Part shown: one piece after another, positions 9,786-33,374 of the stretch
Position numbering within the stretch: the first letter of the stretch is position 1
Layout of the letters: each line of letters starts with the position of its first letter
Source of the DNA: Paracoccaceae bacterium
Lineage (GTDB): Bacteria > Pseudomonadota > Alphaproteobacteria > Rhodobacterales > Rhodobacteraceae
Assembly: GCA_030066175.1 (NCBI GenBank)
Contig: JASJCC010000006.1
Coordinates: 1-41,930, forward strand
Direction of reading: 5' to 3'
Length of the DNA: 41,930 nt
Position numbers and translations under genes: made by a program
The notes under the pieces: model-generated
The model's input: only the letters and a program-made list of their open reading frames with translations
The model's database searches: none
What the model was told of the DNA's origin: nothing

Positions 9786-10823
9786 TCAGTAGCCTGTCAT
9801 TTCCAGATACCCGCGGCCTGTGTGGCTGCCCGAGACGAAGACCGGGCCTTCCCAGTAGGCGACGCTGGTGTTCATCCAGGCGCGTGGATTGAGCGCTTTA
9901 ACGGTGACGTCGACGCCGCGGCTTGGCAGTTCCAAGCGCCATTGGGTCGGCACGTCGCGCCCGGCGACCTGTGTCTGCTCAAGTGGGCTGGCAGAGAGTG
10001 CGTCATTGGCCAACGGTGTCGTTGTACCGTCCGGGGCAATCCATGTGCCAGCGTTGAAGAGCGTTCCGTCGGTCTGGCGCAGCTGAAAGGCCATCAGTTT
10101 CTCACCCGTCTCGAAATTGAGCGAAAACCAGTCCCAGCCGGTCTGGTTCTCGGCCAGCGGCTGCGATGACCATTCGCGATCGAGCCAGGCCGTGCCCGTG
10201 ACTGGCACGGTCCCCTCCGGCAAGGTGAGCTGGCCGCTGATGGCGAAGAACGGCTGGGAATAATAGTAGCTGGCCTGGCCTTCTGCGGATTTCACCGAAT
10301 AGCCTTTGTCGCCCTGGAAGACCAGCGGCCCTTCCGCTGTCAGAGACATCTCATAGCTGAAATCCGGGCCCGTGGCAGTCAGGTCCATGTCGTCAAAGCT
10401 GTCACCAGCGAGGCGCCAATCGTCGATCCAGGCGTCGAAGGGCGCGGCCGTGACGCCGGCTTGCCCGATCCCGCCGCGGGCAAAACGTTCGGCGCTGAAA
10501 TGCGCGTCCGCGGTGGTGACGGCGGCGTGGGCGAACCAGATCTGCGGGCTGTTCCAGCCGTCGGCCTCTCCCGGCGCCAACGCCGATCGGAAGAGCGTCC
10601 ATTGCAGGCCATAATCGGTGCCTGCGTCGTCCTGCAGGTTGGCCGTCAAGTACCACCATTCGATGCGGTAATCGGGATGCGCGCTGTGATCGGCGGGAAA
10701 GTCGAACACTGGGTCCGGTCGGGGTATGGCAAAGCCCTCGACATCCGTGCCCATGCCGGCGAACCCCTGCGCCAGACCAGTAACAGGTAATGAAAGCAGA
10801 AGGAAAATCAGCACCTTATTCAT
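9786..10823 (-). CDS. Secreted CrtC/AttH-like lipocalin-fold protein (carotenoid 1,2-hydratase-like domain)
   Basis: Signal peptide [40 protein letters not shown]…YGLQWTLFR…WLDREWSSQPLAENQTGWDWFSL, hallmark of AttH/CrtC-type proteins. Confidence 0.88.
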   Translation of the reverse strand: MNKVLIFLLLSLPVTGLAQGFAGMGTDVEGFAIPRPDPVFDFPADHSAHPDYRIEWWYLTANLQDDAGTDYGLQWTLFRSALAPGEADGWNSPQIWFAHAAVTTADAHFSAERFARGGIGQAGVTAAPFDAWIDDWRLAGDSFDDMDLTATGPDFSYEMSLTAEGPLVFQGDKGYSVKSAEGQASYYYSQPFFAISGQLTLPEGTVPVTGTAWLDREWSSQPLAENQTGWDWFSLNFETGEKLMAFQLRQTDGTLFNAGTWIAPDGTTTPLANDALSASPLEQTQVAGRDVPTQWRLELPSRGVDVTVKALNPRAWMNTSVAYWEGPVFVSGSHTGRGYLEMTGY

Positions 10824-13212
10824 TGGCAAACACCTTCAACAATCCCGCCGGCGGGGTGCGGGCCAGGCGAAACGCTGGCCAGGCCGCAGCAAGGAGCGCG
10901 GCGAAAAGCGCCGCAGCTCCCAGGCGGGCATAATCGCCGGGAAAGAGGAACATCGGCAGTCGCCAGCCAAAAGCCTCGACATTGATCACGGCCAGCAGGA
11001 TCCAGGCCAGGGCCAGCCCCAGCGGCATCGCAACCACCAGCGTCAGGGCGGCGAGGATCACGGCGCGCAAGAGCTCCAACCGCCCCAGATCGCGCCGCGT
11101 GACCCCCAGCGCCCAGGCGGGCGCCAATTGCGGCAGGCGGAAGCCTGCGAGGGTCAGAAGGCTCATCAAAATGGCGAATCCCGCCACCGCCAAGGTCAGC
11201 ACGTTCAGCGCGGCGGTGATGGTGAAGGTGCGCTCGAACACCCCCAGCGAAAAGGCCTTGAGCGCGGATTGGTCGATCATCTGCCCCGGCTGTATCCCAA
11301 GCGTGTCGATCAGCGCGCGACGCAGCACCTCGGGCTCCGAGCTGCGCAGGCCAAACCGCGTGGTCTGCACATCGGGAAAGTGATCGCGGAACAGGGCCTC
11401 GCCGATGACGGCCTGGCCAATGGGGTTGCCGTAATCCCCCACGACGCCGGCGATCGGCAGGGTGACCTCGGGCGCGATGGCCAGGCCGTCTCCAGGCCAC
11501 AGATCGGCGCGGCGGGCGAGCTGTTCGTTGATGATCACCGCCTCCCCAGCGGCCACACGCTCCCAAACGGCGCCCTCGCTTTGCAGGAACCGCCAGTTGT
11601 CTTCATAGCTGGGCCCGACGCGCGCACCAAAAAGCTCGGCCGGCTGATCGGCAAGGCGCGTGTCGACGAACAGGATCGGCAGGATGGCGTCGGCGCGGTC
11701 TTCGGCAAACGCTTGCAACGCCTTGGCCTGTGCGGCGGTTTCGGTATTGACGTAAAGCTCGGCGGTCAGGCGTTGATCGAGAAAGCCGATAAAGGTCAGG
11801 CGGAAGCTCGACACCATGGTCGACACCCCCACATTGGCCGCCATCGCCAGCAGCAATGCCATTAGGGCAAGGCTCAACCCTGGCAGTTGCTGGCGTGTGT
11901 CGGCCCAGAACCACTCCCAGACGACGCCCTTGGCGCGTCGTTGCCCCAGCCGCAGGAGCACGTCTAGCAGCAACGGAAGCGCCAGCGCCGCGCCCAGCAG
12001 CAGGCACGCCAGGCTGGCAAATCCGAGGATCAGGCCGTCCCCCAGCAGCACCAGAAGTGCTGCCCCGGCCAGCAGCGCCACCGCGCCAAAGGCCTGCGCG
12101 CCACGATGCCGGCCGGCGGCCATAGCCCAGGCGCGCGCACCGGGGCTCGCCAGCACTGGCATCTGCCCAATGCGCCAAAGCGCCTGCGCCGCCGCGACCG
12201 AGGCGCCCAAAACGGCGATGGCGAGGCCGGAAAGCCACCAGGACGGGTGCAGGCGGAGCGTGCCGGACACTTGCGCGCCATAGAGCCCCTCCAAAGAGGC
12301 CGCGACATCCGGCAGAAGGCTCGCCGCCAACACATAGCCCAGCACCACACCGATACCGCCCGCGATCAGGGCGAGCGCGGCCAGTTCGAGCAGCAACAGC
12401 CAGATCAGGTGGCGCAACGACATACCCAGGGTGCGCAAGGTGCGCAGCATGCCGCGGCGCTGTTCAAACGCCAGCCCGATGGCCCCGTGCACGATAAAGA
12501 TGCCGACAGCAAAGCTGAGCAGGCTGAAGGCAGTCAGGTTGAGGTGGAAACTGTCGGTCAGCTGCCCGATATCCGAGCTTTGCTGCGACGGTTGTTCCAC
12601 CAGCGCAGGCGCGACACTGGCCAGCGGCGGGCGACCCAAGGGCTGTTCGGGTGCCACAATCAACCGGCTGAGCTGACCGGGGCGGTCCAGCACCACCTGC
12701 GCCACGCCGATATCGGTGATCGCGGTGCCGGGGGCGAGCCCGGGATCGCGGATCACCTCTTGCGACAGCTCGGTTTCCAAGGCGTCGGCAATCTCAGGAT
12801 TGGCAAAAACCACGTTGCGCGACAAGAAGGTTTGCAACGGGTTTTCACCCGCTTGCGTGATTGGCCCGGCGCCGCCTGGCATGGTCAGTGGATCGATGCC
12901 GACAAGGCGGACGCGCGTTTCTCCGGCCCAGAGCGTGCCCTCCAGAACCGGGCCAACCTGCCATCCGGCGCGCCGCAGATCGACGAAGGTGGCCCGGTCA
13001 AAGCTGTCACCGGTCCGCGGCACCAACTGGTCGAACTGGCCTTCGCCAAGCACCGCTGCGGCGGCGTCATAGCTTGCCCGCGCCTCGGTATTGAGCGCCT
13101 GCACGCCAGACCAAAGCGCTGTGGCCAGCGCCAGCCCGATCACCAGCGTGAAGAGCTGCAAGAGGTTGCGCCGCCAGTAGGACAGCAGCGCGCTTAGCCC
13201 GGCCGCCGTCAT
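10816..13212 (-). CDS. ABC transporter permease, FtsX/LolE-like, two-repeat (798 aa)
   Basis: Multiple hydrophobic segments with FtsX-like arrangement ([83 protein letters not shown]). Overlaps the ATPase gene upstream and the AttH-like gene downstream. Confidence 0.9.
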
Positions 13213-26855: not shown

Positions 26856-26901
26856 TTCGAATTTGATCGAATTACAGGGCATCTATATAACATCATGTTA
26901 T
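26856..26901. promoter_or_regulatory. Candidate LysR-type regulator binding region (two inverted repeats)
   Basis: TTCGA-N6-TCGAA at 26856-26871 and ATAACA-TCA-TGTTAT at 26887-26901, in the divergent intergenic region; the second overlaps the regulator start codon. Confidence 0.45.
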
Positions 26902-27847
26902 GAAAATAGACCCAAGACACCTCGAAATCCTGGCGGCCATCGTCGACAATGGCGGTTTGACCGAAGGCGCCGAGGCACTTGGCAAGTCGCAGCCTTCGAT
27001 CTCTCGCACCTTGTCGCAACTTGAAAGCCGCATCGGCGCGCCCTTGTTCCACCCCGGGCGGCGCCCACTCAAGGCGACCGAGCTGGGCTTGTCCCTCGCC
27101 GCGCAAGGCCGCAGCGTCTTAGAGGCAACCCGCGTGGCCGGCCAGATCGTGGACCGGTACCGCACCGGGCATACCGGGCTTGTCCGCGTTGCGGGAACGC
27201 CGGTGTTCATGGACGGCGTGGTCGCTGGCATTATCGCCAGGTTTCAGCAGCACATGCCGGACGTGCTGGTGGAACAAAGCTATGGTTATGCCGACGCCCT
27301 GATCGACCGTTTGCGCAACGCGACGCTGGATCTGGCGATTATCCCGCTCCAGCAAGGGCAAGTGCCGGACGACCTGCGGTTTCAGCCCATTTTGCCGGGG
27401 TTAAACGTAATCGCCTGTCGAAACGGACACCCGCTTTTGCGGCGCAAATCGATCACCCTGTCGGACATTTCGCAATACTCCTGGATCGCCCCACCAACCA
27501 ACAGCCCGCTCTACCGCGACCTTCAAAGGGCCCTCGCCAAGATCGGAGCGAAGGATTTCCGCATCAACTTTTCCGGCGGATCGCTGGCGTCTGTTGTCAG
27601 CATCCTCGCCGGCTCCGACAGCCTGACCGTGCTGCCCTATTCGGTGGTCTTCGAGATGAAAAACCAAAACCAGATCTCGGCCCTGACACTGGAAATCGGC
27701 CACCCTGACCGGATGTTGGGCGTGTTGTCGAAGGAAACGCCAGACAAGAACCCAGCGGGTGAGCGCTTCAAGTCCTTTGTCATCTCACAATTCGAAAGCC
27801 TATCGCGGAGGATCAATCAACATAGGCAAGAGCAACTCTGGCGGTAG
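26900..27847 (+). CDS. LysR-family transcriptional regulator
   Basis: N-terminal HTH (RHLEILAAIVDNGGLTEGAEALGKSQPSISRTLSQLESRIGAPLFHPGRRPLKATELG); divergent from the hydroxyquinol operon. Confidence 0.95.
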   Translation: MKIDPRHLEILAAIVDNGGLTEGAEALGKSQPSISRTLSQLESRIGAPLFHPGRRPLKATELGLSLAAQGRSVLEATRVAGQIVDRYRTGHTGLVRVAGTPVFMDGVVAGIIARFQQHMPDVLVEQSYGYADALIDRLRNATLDLAIIPLQQGQVPDDLRFQPILPGLNVIACRNGHPLLRRKSITLSDISQYSWIAPPTNSPLYRDLQRALAKIGAKDFRINFSGGSLASVVSILAGSDSLTVLPYSVVFEMKNQNQISALTLEIGHPDRMLGVLSKETPDKNPAGERFKSFVISQFESLSRRINQHRQEQLWR

Positions 27848-28943
27848 TCACGTGCACCCACCGTAAGTGGCCAAATCTCGAATCCTCCCCGAAAAATGCT
27901 GGTATGGCTCTTCCATCTTTTTTATTGGTTTTTTGATGGGTCCAGTTTCCGGAAGCGACAAAGCGCGGAACGCCGACCCACTAGTTGCCGAATGCAAAGG
28001 GTTCCAGTTTGATCTTGGTGGGGCCACGACTCTGTTGATTGGCAACGTCTCAAACACCTCATGGCGCCAGTAAAATGAACCATTAAGTTTCTCTTGGAAA
28101 CAACTTCATGACCATCATACGACCGGTTCGAAATGTGACGATCGCCCTTTGGCAACGCTGTGAACACGGCATCGGCCATGGTTTTTCACTCTTTGAGAAG
28201 CCGATACTTGAAGTACTCGTCATCGACCCGGATTTCTGCTCAGATGGCCAGCCAAATCTCGCCATCCCCTTGCAGTGCGCAATATCGAACCAGGATGGGC
28301 TGGCCTTTTTCGTGGCAAGGTTGCGAAAGGTGCAACATGGGCATTGGCGGTTTTTGAGTGGGTCGCAGAACCGGAGGTTCGGACTGAGTGGGTTGCTCAA
28401 AAACTGCCCGTTACAGCGCTGCAAATCCATGCGGAACGATTGCGATTGCCCCAGGCCAAAGTCCTTGGCGCAACTGATTGGAACTTGTCAGAGAGATTGC
28501 CTCGTTCATGCGATCCACGGGCGGTTTATCTTTTACTCGTACTTCAGGCGTTCACGATATAGCTTGCTTTCGAGACTTGGTCAGACACCGCCAAAAACCT
28601 CGCCGCCCTACACAGCAACAGGTAAACTTGATCGCAGGCGGGCGAGCATCGCGGTGCGTCGCGACGAGCTTTGGTTCCTTTGTCGCGAAGCAAATCTGCG
28701 AGTGCGCCTAAAGAGCATTGCAATGCATGGTTTTGGCGAAAATGCTAAGTCTTCTTGCCAACTGAAATGGACGGGCATTGACCCACCAAATCAACGATCA
28801 GCCGCAGCAGTGCAACTGAAAACGTGCTCCGTTGTGCCAGGCGCTTTGTGTCGCGTGCTTTCAGCAGGCGGATTGGCCGCAAGCATAAGCTTTCAAAGAA
28901 AAAGCTGGCCACAAGGTGGTGCCCGTCTTTAAGGTTAAACATC

Positions 28944-28980
28944 CGGATTGCATGCCGGGTCAGCCGGGCAAGGCAATCCG
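28944..28980. repeat. Inverted repeat CGGATTGC…GCAATCCG upstream of the 862-aa gene
   Basis: Perfect 8-bp arms separated by 21 nt, ending about 40 bp before the ATG at 29021. Confidence 0.5.
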
Positions 28981-29020
28981 TTCCGAAGTGGTGGTATCAC
29001 TCAAGGGGGGAGGATGAACC

Positions 29021-31609
29021 ATGTCTGACGACGCATCGAATGCCGAAGAAGCGCTTGTGAATGCGCGGGCGAAAACTGCAGAGACGGTTGCGTTAAGCCG
29101 CGAAGAAATCCGGCAAGAGACCGCGAAGATCGGGTTGGACGCGGTCAAGCGACATCGCGCCGAGACACCCTCCCACCTGGAGCCGCATGGCAATCCCACG
29201 ACTCAGACCGTGTATTACCGTTCGGTGAAAATCACCGATATCGATTTCGATGAAGACGGGCTTGAGCCGATCACCCATGGCATCGATCTGGGGCTGCAAA
29301 CGCCCGAAGGATACGAACGCCCTGCCGTGGGGGTGCGCATCACAACCGAACAGACCTGGCAGCCCATGGGCATTGCGCTGGGCCAGCTGTTGCACAGTAT
29401 CGCGCTTGCACCCGGCGAGGTGACGAAAGTCGCCGTGCTGGATTGGCAACGCCGCGCGGCAGGCCGGGCGTCAGAAAGCACAAGCCAAGACGAAGCGCTG
29501 CGCGCGGAAAACCAACAGGATACAGCCCATAGCGACGTGACCTCGTCGGTTGCGCATGAAACGCAACACGGCAGTTCGAACGTAAATACAAACGGCGCCA
29601 GTTCGCAGTCAGGGACGTCCAATACCAGTATCCTGGGCGGGTTTTTCGGCGGTGGCGGTGGCGGCGGCATCCTCGGAAGCATGCTGGGCGGCGGCGGAGG
29701 CCTTTTTGGTGGCGGGCTTGGTGCCATCGGCAGCATGTTTGGCGGTGGTGGCGGCGGCGGGTTGCTTGGTGGCATCGGGAGCTTGTTTGGCGGTGGCGGC
29801 AGCAAACCATCCTCGATCGGCAGCTCAAGCAACTCGGGCGTGTCGACAAGCGTCAGCCGGACATCGGGCGAAAAGGACGTGTCGCTGTCTGAGACCGATT
29901 GGATTCACAGCTTAACGTCACAAGCGGCGTCCTCCAGCCGCAGCCGTCGCGCCGCCTCGATTCAAGAGACGTCGCAGGACGAAAACGAAACCGCATCGTC
30001 CCGGGTTCTGGCCAACTACAACCACATGCACACGCTGAATGTGATGTATTACGACGTTGTGCAGAAATACCATGTGCGCACCAGGGTCAAATCCTACGAA
30101 CGGCTGCTGTTCATTCCGTTCAAGCCGCTGACATTCGACGCGCATCTGGTCGATCAATACGCACTGGAATTGCTGGCCGCGGCGCTTCATCGGGCCGAAG
30201 TGCATTGGGCGGAAACCATTCTTCGGCGGAACGCGTCCGAAAATGTCGGGCCTGGCCTGTCCCCACCGGACATCGACGGGTTGTGCGGGCATCTCAACAT
30301 CAACACGCTCTATTACAGCTCCGTCATCTGGATGAACATGAACTCGCTGCAGCTCAGCCGGGCGCTGCGCTACTACAGCTATGAAGGGAGATCGGTTGCG
30401 GCCAGCGTGGATTTGCGCCCGGTGGCCATCACCGGGAATTACCTGGGCTTTGTCTGGCCGTTTGCACCGGGTGACAGCGCCCCGACCCCGCAACGCGTCT
30501 ACACATTTACCGAAGACGATCGCCAGCGGCCTGCGGCGGGAACCCTGATGGACGTGAGCCTGCTAAACCCGCGGTACCGGCTAGGGGATGTTCTGGTCAG
30601 CGTGACCACCGTCGATCAGGTGACGACGACCTTGAACATGGGGCCCGCGAACCGGGACGCGAATGAAAGCTTTGTTATCCCGATGCAAGACATCGCGATG
30701 ATCCAAATCGATATCACGGCCATCAGCCCGGTCAAATTCGGTGCGGGGCATCCCCCCGCCTTCACGATCATGGCGTACTTGGGGCTGCAGAAAAATGACG
30801 GGCGGGTGGCCATCCCGACGCTTTTGACGATGTTGCCTGATCCCGATCCCAATGACCCGGCGCGTCAAACGTTCTCGGCCTCGGCCCAGCTGCTGACGGG
30901 CAAAACGATCTACGGCCCGCCCCCGGATGAGGCGGAAGAAGAATGGTACGGTCAGTTCAATGACCATGCGGTCACCGAAGGCGAAATTGACCTGCCAACT
31001 GGTGGTGTTTTTGCCGAAGGTGTGTTGGGCAGCGCCACAGCGGCCGAAAAGCTCGACATGTCGCGGTTCTGGAATTGGCAGGATTCGCCGATTCCGATTT
31101 TGCCGCCCGACATCAACCCGGTCGACGTGGCGTCCCGCTATCAGAACGCGGCCGCCGCGACGCATGGGCTGGAAACGAGTGCTGCAGCGTTGCAGCAATT
31201 GGGGCCGGTGCCGATGCTGCAGGGGCTGCTTGCGGCCAGCGACGTGATGAAATCCAACCTGTTCCGCGACATGAGCGGCGCCAAAGAAGCCGCGCAAAAC
31301 GCCGCGGCGGCGCTGGGCGAGGCCGGCAAGAACGCCGACAGCGCCTCCAAGACAGCGATGGAGGGCCAAATGGCCGCCATGCAGAACGCCGCTGACCTGA
31401 TCGGCAAGGCCATGGACACCATGACCTCGATCGAAGCCCCCGAAGCGACGGCGGCCAAAGGCCTGATGGGTGGCGACGGCGCACCGAAAGAGAGCCTGTC
31501 CGAGAAAGGGGCGGAGGCCAACCTCAAGGAGGTCAATGAAACAACCGAAAACGCCGAAAGCGCGGTAGAGAAAGAAATCATCCAGGACGCGATCAAGGGC
31601 ATCGAATAA
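29021..31609 (+). CDS. Large uncharacterised protein (862 aa) with internal glycine-zipper-like repeat region
   Basis: Intact ORF with SD (GGGGAGGA). Segments: LAPGEVTKVAVLDWQRRAAGRASES; SILGGFFGGGGGGGILGSMLGGGGGLFGGGLGAIGSMFGGGGGGGLLGGIGSLFGGGGS; RVLANYNHMHTLNVMYYDVVQKYHVRTRV; Ala-rich C-terminal helices. Confidence 0.9.
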   Translation: MSDDASNAEEALVNARAKTAETVALSREEIRQETAKIGLDAVKRHRAETPSHLEPHGNPTTQTVYYRSVKITDIDFDEDGLEPITHGIDLGLQTPEGYERPAVGVRITTEQTWQPMGIALGQLLHSIALAPGEVTKVAVLDWQRRAAGRASESTSQDEALRAENQQDTAHSDVTSSVAHETQHGSSNVNTNGASSQSGTSNTSILGGFFGGGGGGGILGSMLGGGGGLFGGGLGAIGSMFGGGGGGGLLGGIGSLFGGGGSKPSSIGSSSNSGVSTSVSRTSGEKDVSLSETDWIHSLTSQAASSSRSRRAASIQETSQDENETASSRVLANYNHMHTLNVMYYDVVQKYHVRTRVKSYERLLFIPFKPLTFDAHLVDQYALELLAAALHRAEVHWAETILRRNASENVGPGLSPPDIDGLCGHLNINTLYYSSVIWMNMNSLQLSRALRYYSYEGRSVAASVDLRPVAITGNYLGFVWPFAPGDSAPTPQRVYTFTEDDRQRPAAGTLMDVSLLNPRYRLGDVLVSVTTVDQVTTTLNMGPANRDANESFVIPMQDIAMIQIDITAISPVKFGAGHPPAFTIMAYLGLQKNDGRVAIPTLLTMLPDPDPNDPARQTFSASAQLLTGKTIYGPPPDEAEEEWYGQFNDHAVTEGEIDLPTGGVFAEGVLGSATAAEKLDMSRFWNWQDSPIPILPPDINPVDVASRYQNAAAATHGLETSAAALQQLGPVPMLQGLLAASDVMKSNLFRDMSGAKEAAQNAAAALGEAGKNADSASKTAMEGQMAAMQNAADLIGKAMDTMTSIEAPEATAAKGLMGGDGAPKESLSEKGAEANLKEVNETTENAESAVEKEIIQDAIKGIE

Positions 31610-31667
31610 CGCGCGCCGCAACTGCACCTGTGCAGAGAGCCAACATAGCCGGTATGCGTTGGTCGGC

Positions 31668-32312
31668 TTAAGGTCGCGCTGTGGGTGGATCGATGGAAGG
31701 GCCTTCACTTGCATCGGGTCGTGTGATTGTGTCCGGCTGGATCGAAAGGGGCTGCTCTTTCGGAACGTTTGCTGGTACCGCAGGACCAGTGTGACCGCGT
31801 GCACCACTGGTCGGTTTTGGCTGTTTCGTTGGCATCATGCCGAATTTTTCCGGGTTTACTACCAACGCCTCGATCAAACGTTGCAAGGGAATACTTGCCG
31901 ATTGTTCTGCCGGTCCTGTTTCTACGCCGGCCTCCTGAGGACTGACATTCGCGACTCTGGTTGAACCGGTTGTTCCAACAGGGTCTTCTGTTAGGCCTTG
32001 CAGTTCAAAATCAGTCTGTGCATGCGGCTGCTCGAACCCCGACATGGTATCGACCAAGGGGACTCCAATCACTATAGGCATACCATCTAGGTCGTAAGCG
32101 ATTTCGAAAGCAATTGGCTGATCAAGCTGGAACGTAAGATCATCTGCTTCGGTCAAGACGTCTTGATAGGTCTCCACGGCGTCTATCTGCGGACCGGCGA
32201 CTTGAATTTCTTGATCTGTTCCTTGTTCTTCTGCATCGGTATCTATTTCGCCTGTATTCGCGTCATAGGTGGAAAGGCCTGCATCGCAACGGGGATGCGT
32301 ACCCTCAGGCAT
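31668..32312 (-). CDS. Hypothetical acidic, Pro/Thr-rich protein, convergent to the 862-aa gene
   Basis: ORF beginning MPEGTHPRCDAGLSTYDANTGEIDTDAEEQGTDQEIQ…; no stop codons over 215 codons; low-complexity composition, no recognised domain. Confidence 0.5.
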   Translation of the reverse strand: MPEGTHPRCDAGLSTYDANTGEIDTDAEEQGTDQEIQVAGPQIDAVETYQDVLTEADDLTFQLDQPIAFEIAYDLDGMPIVIGVPLVDTMSGFEQPHAQTDFELQGLTEDPVGTTGSTRVANVSPQEAGVETGPAEQSASIPLQRLIEALVVNPEKFGMMPTKQPKPTSGARGHTGPAVPANVPKEQPLSIQPDTITRPDASEGPSIDPPTARP

Positions 32313-32819
32313 TGCAAACGTCTGGTATCGAAGGCTGTGAAAGGCGCAGAAGCGCGGCCGGCGCTGTGCTATACCAGAAAAACGGACTTGCCGACGATAC
32401 CTGAAGATTTGAATTACAGTCGCCTGTCCGCACACTACTGTTCATACGCACCGCCGCGCCGGCAATAGGACAGGCTTCTTTGATTTCGGGATCGCGATGT
32501 CGCCAGGCTGAAGTTTTGCCGCACACTTGGACCGTAGCCCCTTAAAGAGCGCACACAAGGAACTGAATTCATCCGCCGGGTTGGAGCGCACTCTGAGAAG
32601 GCTTTAGCAGAAAACGCTAAAGAATACTGCGAGGCCAAAGAGAGTTCCGTGATCAAAGAATTGCTCCTTTGATCGCAGCATCCGAGTGTGCAAAAAGCCC
32701 GCAGTGATCACGCAAACTTCTCCTGCGCGCTCCCCACTCACAAAGTACAGGTGATTACCCAAGACACGGATGGCGAAACTCTGGCTGAAGTGGCATACGC
32801 GCCTTGCGGGTCCTGCAGA

Positions 32820-33374
32820 TCACGCCAGCTGCGGGATTCCTGCGAGGCGGACAACAAGCTCAAGACTATTGCGCGCATCCATCTTTTTTAGAAGGTTTGC
32901 GCGGTGCACTTCCACCGTGCGCGGCGAGATGTCGAGGCCGTGCGCAATCTCTTTGGTGGTCTGTCCTTCGACCATCATCTTGGCCACTTGCCGTTCGCGC
33001 ATCGTAAGGTCCGTTGTCGGACGCTCATCAGACAGGTCGGCAAAGCTCCAAACGGCCTTGGCGAAAGGGGTGTCCGGAGTAAGTGATTGCCCCCTTACCC
33101 GGCACCAAAACAAGGCACCCGAGCGGCGGCGCATGATGCGTTCATCAGCGTAGCTGCCCGTCCTGGCCATCTGCGCGACGCCAAGGGCTCCGATCCGCTT
33201 AAATTCATCCGAAGTCGGATAGAGCTTGGACAGCGACACCCCTTGCAACGCCGTCATTTCATATCCGAACATGGCGGCAAAACGCGGATTGCAGAGCCGG
33301 ATCACCCGCTCTTCGGAGTAGATCATTCCGATCGGTGCATGCTCAAAGGCGATTTTGGCAAGGTTATCCATCAC
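32820..33374 (-). CDS. PAS domain - LuxR (FixJ-type HTH) transcriptional regulator
   Basis: IAFEHAPIGMIYSEERVIRLCNPRFAAMFGYE (PAS) and LTMRERQVAKMMVEGQTTKEIAHGLDISPRTVEVHRANLLKKM (LuxR HTH). Confidence 0.94.
   Translation of the reverse strand: MMDNLAKIAFEHAPIGMIYSEERVIRLCNPRFAAMFGYEMTALQGVSLSKLYPTSDEFKRIGALGVAQMARTGSYADERIMRRRSGALFWCRVRGQSLTPDTPFAKAVWSFADLSDERPTTDLTMRERQVAKMMVEGQTTKEIAHGLDISPRTVEVHRANLLKKMDARNSLELVVRLAGIPQLA

Follow-up and report, generated by a model that had tools for sequence, protein, structure and literature searches.

A large alphaproteobacterial protein with an enlarged glycine-rich tip as a possible minimal member of an undescribed modular protein family

A lone gene without a named family

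What is the large protein with a glycine-rich block that is encoded by an apparently solitary gene of a Paracoccaceae bacterium, and what might the block be for? The window, which is the whole stretch of DNA analyzed here (41,930 nucleotides), contains an uninterrupted ORF of 862 codons on the forward strand, running from the ATG at 29021 to the stop codon ending at 31609. The initial annotation had placed a single open frame for an 862-aa protein exactly there. The product is called P0001 below.

29003..29013, + strand: Shine-Dalgarno-like AAGGGGGGAGG, 7 nt before the P0001 ATG (read from the sequence)
29021..31609, + strand: CDS of P0001, 862 aa, a single open frame; homologues align along its length

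A LysR-type gene (26900-27847) lies on one side of the gene and a PAS-LuxR gene (32820-33374) on the other. The adjoining DNA on either side (27848-29020 and 31610-32820, about 1.2 kb each) is AT-richer and apparently non-coding, with a GC content of about 0.50-0.56, versus 0.62 for the whole window, and no transposase was seen in these two flanks. A recent horizontal arrival of the gene was considered and rejected, since its codon usage is neighbor-like (0.077 vs. 0.065-0.109 for the other genes of the window), despite its absence from all 36 genomes of the same taxonomic family that were drawn and despite its Streptomyces and Embleya kin (see below). The source assembly has one copy, and inspection of the neighborhood agreed with the earlier view that P0001 stands alone. 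Elsewhere in the window, an FtsX-type permease gene adjoins a CrtC-type lipocalin gene (9786-13212, - strand).

P0001 was searched against Pfam, NCBIfam, PHROGs, PADLOC, and PDB sequences, and no match above the cut-offs was obtained, as had been expected of a protein with no known family. The PADLOC defense systems gave no match, and no toxin domain was recognizable in P0001 itself with Pfam, NCBIfam, or the PDB. An assignment to YidB (PF20159) was discarded; the score of 14.3 bits is below the Pfam cut-off of 24.3, and the match is a low-complexity one over the Gly-rich stretch. Sequence and profile searches of the PDB with the family core found nothing credible, and a literature search confined to open-access papers found no earlier description of the family.

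A patchy family in bacteria and archaea

The initial annotation had tentatively mentioned other large proteins with APGE..DW and NYNHMHxL..YYEV motifs and supposed a widespread family. The supposition was correct. Both motifs are present in P0001 as quoted (LAPGEVTKVAVLDWQRR at residues 129-145 and NYNHMHTLNVMYYDVV at residues 332-347), and about 30 relatives were collected, among them a tandem pair in Aquincola. On the evidence of the alignments, P0001 belongs to an undescribed family of large bacterial and archaeal proteins with one common core. The hosts are Pseudomonadota, Actinomycetota, Cyanobacteriota, and one haloarchaeon, where the genomes outside Pseudomonadota were reached through plasmid records only. 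Plasmid-borne relatives were found in Streptomyces, Embleya, Haladaptatus (the archaeon), Novosphingobium, Polaromonas, Nostoc, and Caballeronia, and further members in Psychrobacter, Miltoncostaea, and Ruegeria. A second family copy on the Haladaptatus plasmid NZ_CP119792.1 (W02; 587139-590920) is split into two reading frames and possibly frameshifted.

The distribution is patchy, at about 1-4% of genomes in profile searches. Whole-genome profile searches found the family in 4 of 399 Pseudomonadota genomes, in 3 of 386 genomes of the window's class, and in 13 of 274 genomes of the class of another carrier (G304), the last count including four short cousins of 430-480 aa and two genomes that match solely via the C-terminal domain. 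Among 60 genomes drawn around the source genome, 36 of them from the same family, none has a relative of P0001. In a tree of three concatenated core blocks, the nearest kin of P0001 are the Streptomyces and Embleya proteins (support 98/97); the tree leaves out the member from genome G777, which was found later, and its branch lengths are approximate for Aquincola copy a, whose third block was drawn from the wrong motif.

The short cousins (430-480 aa; L044:9356-10693, L045:7563-8855, L046:8631-9956, and one in G711, L033) have the layout LLPGE ... NPNxCxxxT ... LPTPG..CxxCE. They are apparently the minimal form of the core. No Pfam match was found for the two tested, and no plasmid match for the one tested.

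Layout of the core

The core of the family, as read from the alignments, is arranged in the order of a LAPGE..DW strand, leg 1, a tip, leg 2, an NxNHxHxxTxxYYEV motif, and an LPTxGVFAExxLG motif. The long-form members are 739-1988 aa in length. The corresponding parts of P0001 are as follows.

Residues 1-48, 29021..29164, + strand: charged N-terminal stretch without a hydrophobic stretch; predicted helix, pLDDT 41-49 (AF2, single sequence)
Residues 49-142, 29165..29446, + strand: N-terminal core region ending in LAPGEVTKVAVLDW (11-sequence alignment)
Residues 143-182, 29447..29566, + strand: leg 1, always 40 alignment columns long in the long forms; 28% charged in P0001
Residues 183-281, 29567..29863, + strand: tip of 99 aa (relatives, 31-80 aa), with 2% charged residues and 39% Gly
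Residues 204-260, 29630..29800, + strand: Gly/Leu/Phe/Ile block of three degenerate units (DNA repeats, shuffles)
Residues 282-331, 29864..30013, + strand: leg 2, always 50 alignment columns long in the long forms; 26% charged in P0001
Residues 332-350, 30014..30070, + strand: NYNHMHTLNVMYYDVVQKY signature strand with invariant N332, N334, Y343, and V346
Residues 423-480, 30287..30460, + strand: HLNxNxxYYSxxIW ... GNYLGF module, shared with relatives
Residues 485-655, 30473..30985, + strand: block without a Pfam match, after the YYSxxIW module
Residues 658-706, 30992..31138, + strand: LPTGGVFAEGVLGxxxxAEKLDMSRFWNWQDSPIP..ASR core domain (alignment)
Residues 731-861, 31211..31603, + strand: Ala-rich helical end with FRDMSG (AF2 single sequence, pLDDT about 41-62; alignment)

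Across 11 members, 25 columns are invariant, among them W113, G121, LAP129-131, N332, N334, Y343, G662, E666, E676, and D679; in the N-terminal core region, the 11-sequence alignment has W113, G117, G121, S126, and LAP129-131 as invariant residues. The legs are gap-free in the long forms, with a charge of 20-55% in leg 1 and 16-28% in leg 2 (27-sequence alignment). Helical and strand/hydrophobic periodicities of the legs were tested and were not significant. Leg 2 is a helix in a three-sequence AF2 model of an Aquincola relative, at a pLDDT of only 54-67. The mean pLDDT is 41.2 for that model and 34.8 for the single-sequence model of P0001, and these low-confidence models suggest C-terminal helices in P0001, as had been proposed initially.

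P0001 differs from its relatives in the second half. The YYSxxIW module sits earlier, 99 aa past NYNH compared with 239-477 aa in relatives, and the variable block, which precedes the module in the relatives measured, follows it in P0001. The length after the module is 227 aa in P0001 versus 70-130 aa in relatives, a range that ignores a larger figure for G304, which is a second motif match near the C-terminus. The CxxC of several relatives is missing from the domain at residues 658-706.

The glycine-rich tip

The three degenerate Gly units of the initial annotation are present at about residues 204-260. Chance does not come close to producing such a block. The richest 63-aa window of P0001 has 35 Gly residues, whereas 2000 shuffles of P0001 gave at most 18, and the longest uncharged run is 78 residues, versus at most 64 among 2000 shuffles. 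The block is not an insertion as had been described. Relatives hold a shorter Gly-rich, low-charge segment at the equivalent place, and thus what looked like an insertion is an enlarged conserved tip. Throughout the family, the tip is Gly-bearing, 31-99 residues in length, and 2-13% charged (27-sequence alignment), and no other feature of the core is as variable as its length. Units 2 and 3 of the P0001 block are 88% identical in DNA over 40 nt and lie 48 nt apart; they are therefore in-frame tandem duplicates. As far as the aligned sequences tell, the tip of P0001 is the longest in the family and has been lengthened through in-frame tandem duplication.

Is the tip a membrane element? The most hydrophobic 15-residue window of the leg-tip-leg hairpin falls in the tip in 26 of the 27 sequences (e.g., GIGAILGPVGALFGI and GLFGGIGAIVGGVGF). 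The hydrophobicity is modest, with a 15-residue Kyte-Doolittle maximum of 1.24 in P0001 and 0.4-2.0 in relatives. Residues 200-262 of P0001 contain 18 overlapping GxxxG motifs, and hydrophobicity is low there. The Gly block might instead be neutral, a tolerant loop that has grown by replication slippage and has no membrane function. The high identity of the units in DNA and the large variation of the tip length would be natural outcomes of such growth. This explanation is unlikely, however, when it is considered that all long-form relatives retain a Gly-bearing, low-charge tip that includes the hairpin's most hydrophobic window.

Variable modules on a constant core

The earlier picture of a protein family was right, but that of an inserted Gly block was not. 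The family is modular, and its N- and C-terminal modules vary and include a cell-wall enzyme. The constant core is combined with differing C-termini across the members, as in polymorphic toxin/effector systems. The C-terminus of the Caballeronia member matches a solved lytic transglycosidase PDB chain (E 1e-40), the Haladaptatus plasmid member has a DUF2272 module (E 3e-15), and the Psychrobacter member has an OmpA module (E 4e-6). A conserved HExxH domain is common to three members, with HELGH in a fourth, and one member has a weak DUF3238-like C-terminal match. A GH19 assignment for the Nostoc C-terminus was rejected (Pfam E 0.18 only, no PDB match). Several members have an HHH_3 (HhH) module at the N-terminus. 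The two closest actinomycete relatives, from Streptomyces and Embleya, have tectonin in the middle block, and the Embleya protein also has a weak jacalin match (E 0.005). A recognizable enzyme is present in a minority of members only. P0001 has no enzyme module at its C-terminus, and the C-terminal module is absent both from P0001 and from the 739-aa G777 relative. At two further loci, G683:C34:71852-72277 (L036) and G481:C216:8068-8463 (L037), the match to the second-subfamily profile is confined to its C-terminal part; the one in G683 is an ORF of 280 aa that is similar to the Caballeronia member's transglycosylase.

The Caballeronia transglycosylase also matches a PDB entry named 'Internal protein' (E 7e-6), as would be expected if the family were derived from a phage tail or ejection protein. 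This origin has been largely refuted, since the family is missing from PHROGs, from 50,697 phage records, and from three viral-contig scans.

OmpA, tectonin, and the possible jacalin domain suit a different explanation, in which the core is a large structural or adhesive platform that the end and middle modules, including those that bind or cut the cell wall, fasten to glycans or to the envelope of the producing cell, with the Gly tip as a flexible loop. Such a scaffold or surface protein would also account for neighborhoods that lack recognized toxin-type genes or an immunity gene. On the other hand, P0001 has no visible hydrophobic export signal at its N-terminus, and, since the haloarchaeon has no peptidoglycan of its own, its peptidoglycan-type hydrolase module better fits an outward target. 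The scaffold explanation is possible but somewhat doubtful.

Neighborhoods and delivery

Members stand alone in nearly every neighborhood inspected. No small neighbor recurs beside the P0001 gene and the other inspected members, and no immunity gene was recognized by inspection. The initial statement that there is no known partner is true for P0001 but does not apply to one subclade (Novosphingobium, Ruegeria, and the G993 genome), in which a conserved gene of 326-412 aa (36% and 59% identity) lies directly downstream of the core gene. The one product tested has no Pfam domain. In Novosphingobium, a neprosin-family gene lies directly upstream of the core gene.

L056:10163-11161: conserved downstream partner gene, Ruegeria
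L007:15739-16977: conserved downstream partner gene, Novosphingobium
L082:11474-12454: conserved downstream partner gene, G993

How might P0001 leave the cell? The N-terminus was read directly and has no hydrophobic segment, in line with the earlier remark that a signal peptide is lacking. TssB of the T6SS was found in 1 of 14 carriers tested, a gp19 tube in 3 of 14 (vs. 24 of 399 genomes at large), and CIS_tube was absent or below the cut-off in 6 of 7. No machine is common to the carriers tested, and T6SS and eCIS were thus rejected as a general delivery route. The source genome itself has an extracellular contractile injection system (eCIS) at positions 1398-12988 of contig C98 (locus L072 of G000), consisting of a sheath, two gp19 tubes, CIS_tube, a VgrG-like hub, baseplate J, and a possible fiber; the P0001 gene is on a different contig. 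The presence of this system, a gp19 tube in Aquincola too, and the occurrence of gp19 in 2 of 4 carriers versus 22 of 395 non-carriers (one draw, Fisher p 0.02) raise the idea that P0001 is eCIS cargo. This is very unlikely, because gp19 is missing from 11 of the 14 carriers tested and CIS_tube from two more carriers, the surroundings of the G304 pair contain no eCIS genes, no member was seen beside an eCIS, and Pfam reported no DUF4157 in P0001.

Comparison with known systems

The family resembles the TANFOR proteins (PMC7073777) and the WHIX T6SS effectors (PMC12135965) in its constant core, variable termini, cell-wall-active enzymes, and patchy distribution, and, in one subclade, in a conserved next gene. 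However, its core is unrelated to theirs by any library search, and it has no recognized immunity genes. Among TANFOR proteins, about 87% carry a Sec signal (PMC7073777), while P0001 has no hydrophobic signal; more than 98% of WHIX genomes have a T6SS (PMC12135965), while 13 of 14 carriers of the P0001 family do not. Tde1 needs a glycine zipper to cross the target membrane (PMC10240207), and the Gly-rich, low-charge block of P0001 with its overlapping GxxxG motifs is similar. The zipper of Tde1 is N-terminal and beside a DNase, whereas the P0001 block is in the middle of the core between long legs, with no toxin domain. Like eCIS-associated toxins (PMC8213781), the family is modular and found in environmental microbes, one of which, the source, has an eCIS; unlike them, it lies outside eCIS operons, has no DUF4157, and is mostly carried without an eCIS. 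Archaeal cell-wall (peptidoglycan) hydrolases kill bacteria (PMC12352652), and the DUF2272 module of the Haladaptatus plasmid member is reminiscent of them. Those tested have Tat signals, and the main text of PMC12352652 names neither DUF2272 nor Haladaptatus.

A possible carrier

The reading preferred here, at a probability of about 38%, is that P0001 is a minimal member of an undescribed modular family whose core is a membrane-active carrier that brings end modules to a target. The fixed-length legs, the low-charge tip, and the variable ends of the family are seen in the sequences. Polymorphic effectors likewise keep a core constant while exchanging its ends, and Tde1 is a precedent for the Gly tip; from these I infer a carrier and, with it, that the protein is exported, meets a membrane, and acts on another cell. 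The patchy distribution of the family and its occurrence on plasmids point the same way. Points against the carrier are the poor models, the non-significant periodicity of the legs, the modest hydrophobicity of the tip, the lack of a recognized immunity gene or a shared delivery system, and the small share of members with a recognizable enzyme, P0001 not being among them. The core hairpin may present the Gly-rich tip to a membrane, by analogy with a fusion loop or the Tde1 glycine zipper. In most relatives, the core would bring the end module (a cell-wall enzyme, a possible protease, or a binding domain) to the target, probably another cell. P0001, whose tip is the longest and which lacks an end module, would thus either use this tip directly to permeabilize or anchor, or carry a partner in trans. 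As no hydrophobic signal was seen, the protein is assumed to leave the cell through lysis or by a non-Sec route. A bolder version of the carrier reading is speculative and quite improbable as a whole: a hitherto undescribed class of bacterial and archaeal proteins that would deliver themselves. Their helical hairpin, with a Gly tip resembling a fusion peptide, would insert into target envelopes and bring along exchangeable cell-wall enzymes, proteases, or lectins without a dedicated secretion machine, and P0001 would be a tip-only form acting directly on membranes.

The family occurs in both bacteria and archaea, is found repeatedly on plasmids, and is absent from the protein libraries searched, and its single invariant core is joined to a wide range of exchangeable end modules. 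Were the core a delivery device, it would represent a new chassis by which enzymes could be moved into other cells; as a scaffold, it would still be a large, conserved, and nameless module. P0001 combines the longest tip with the absence of an end module and is a natural choice for studying the core alone.
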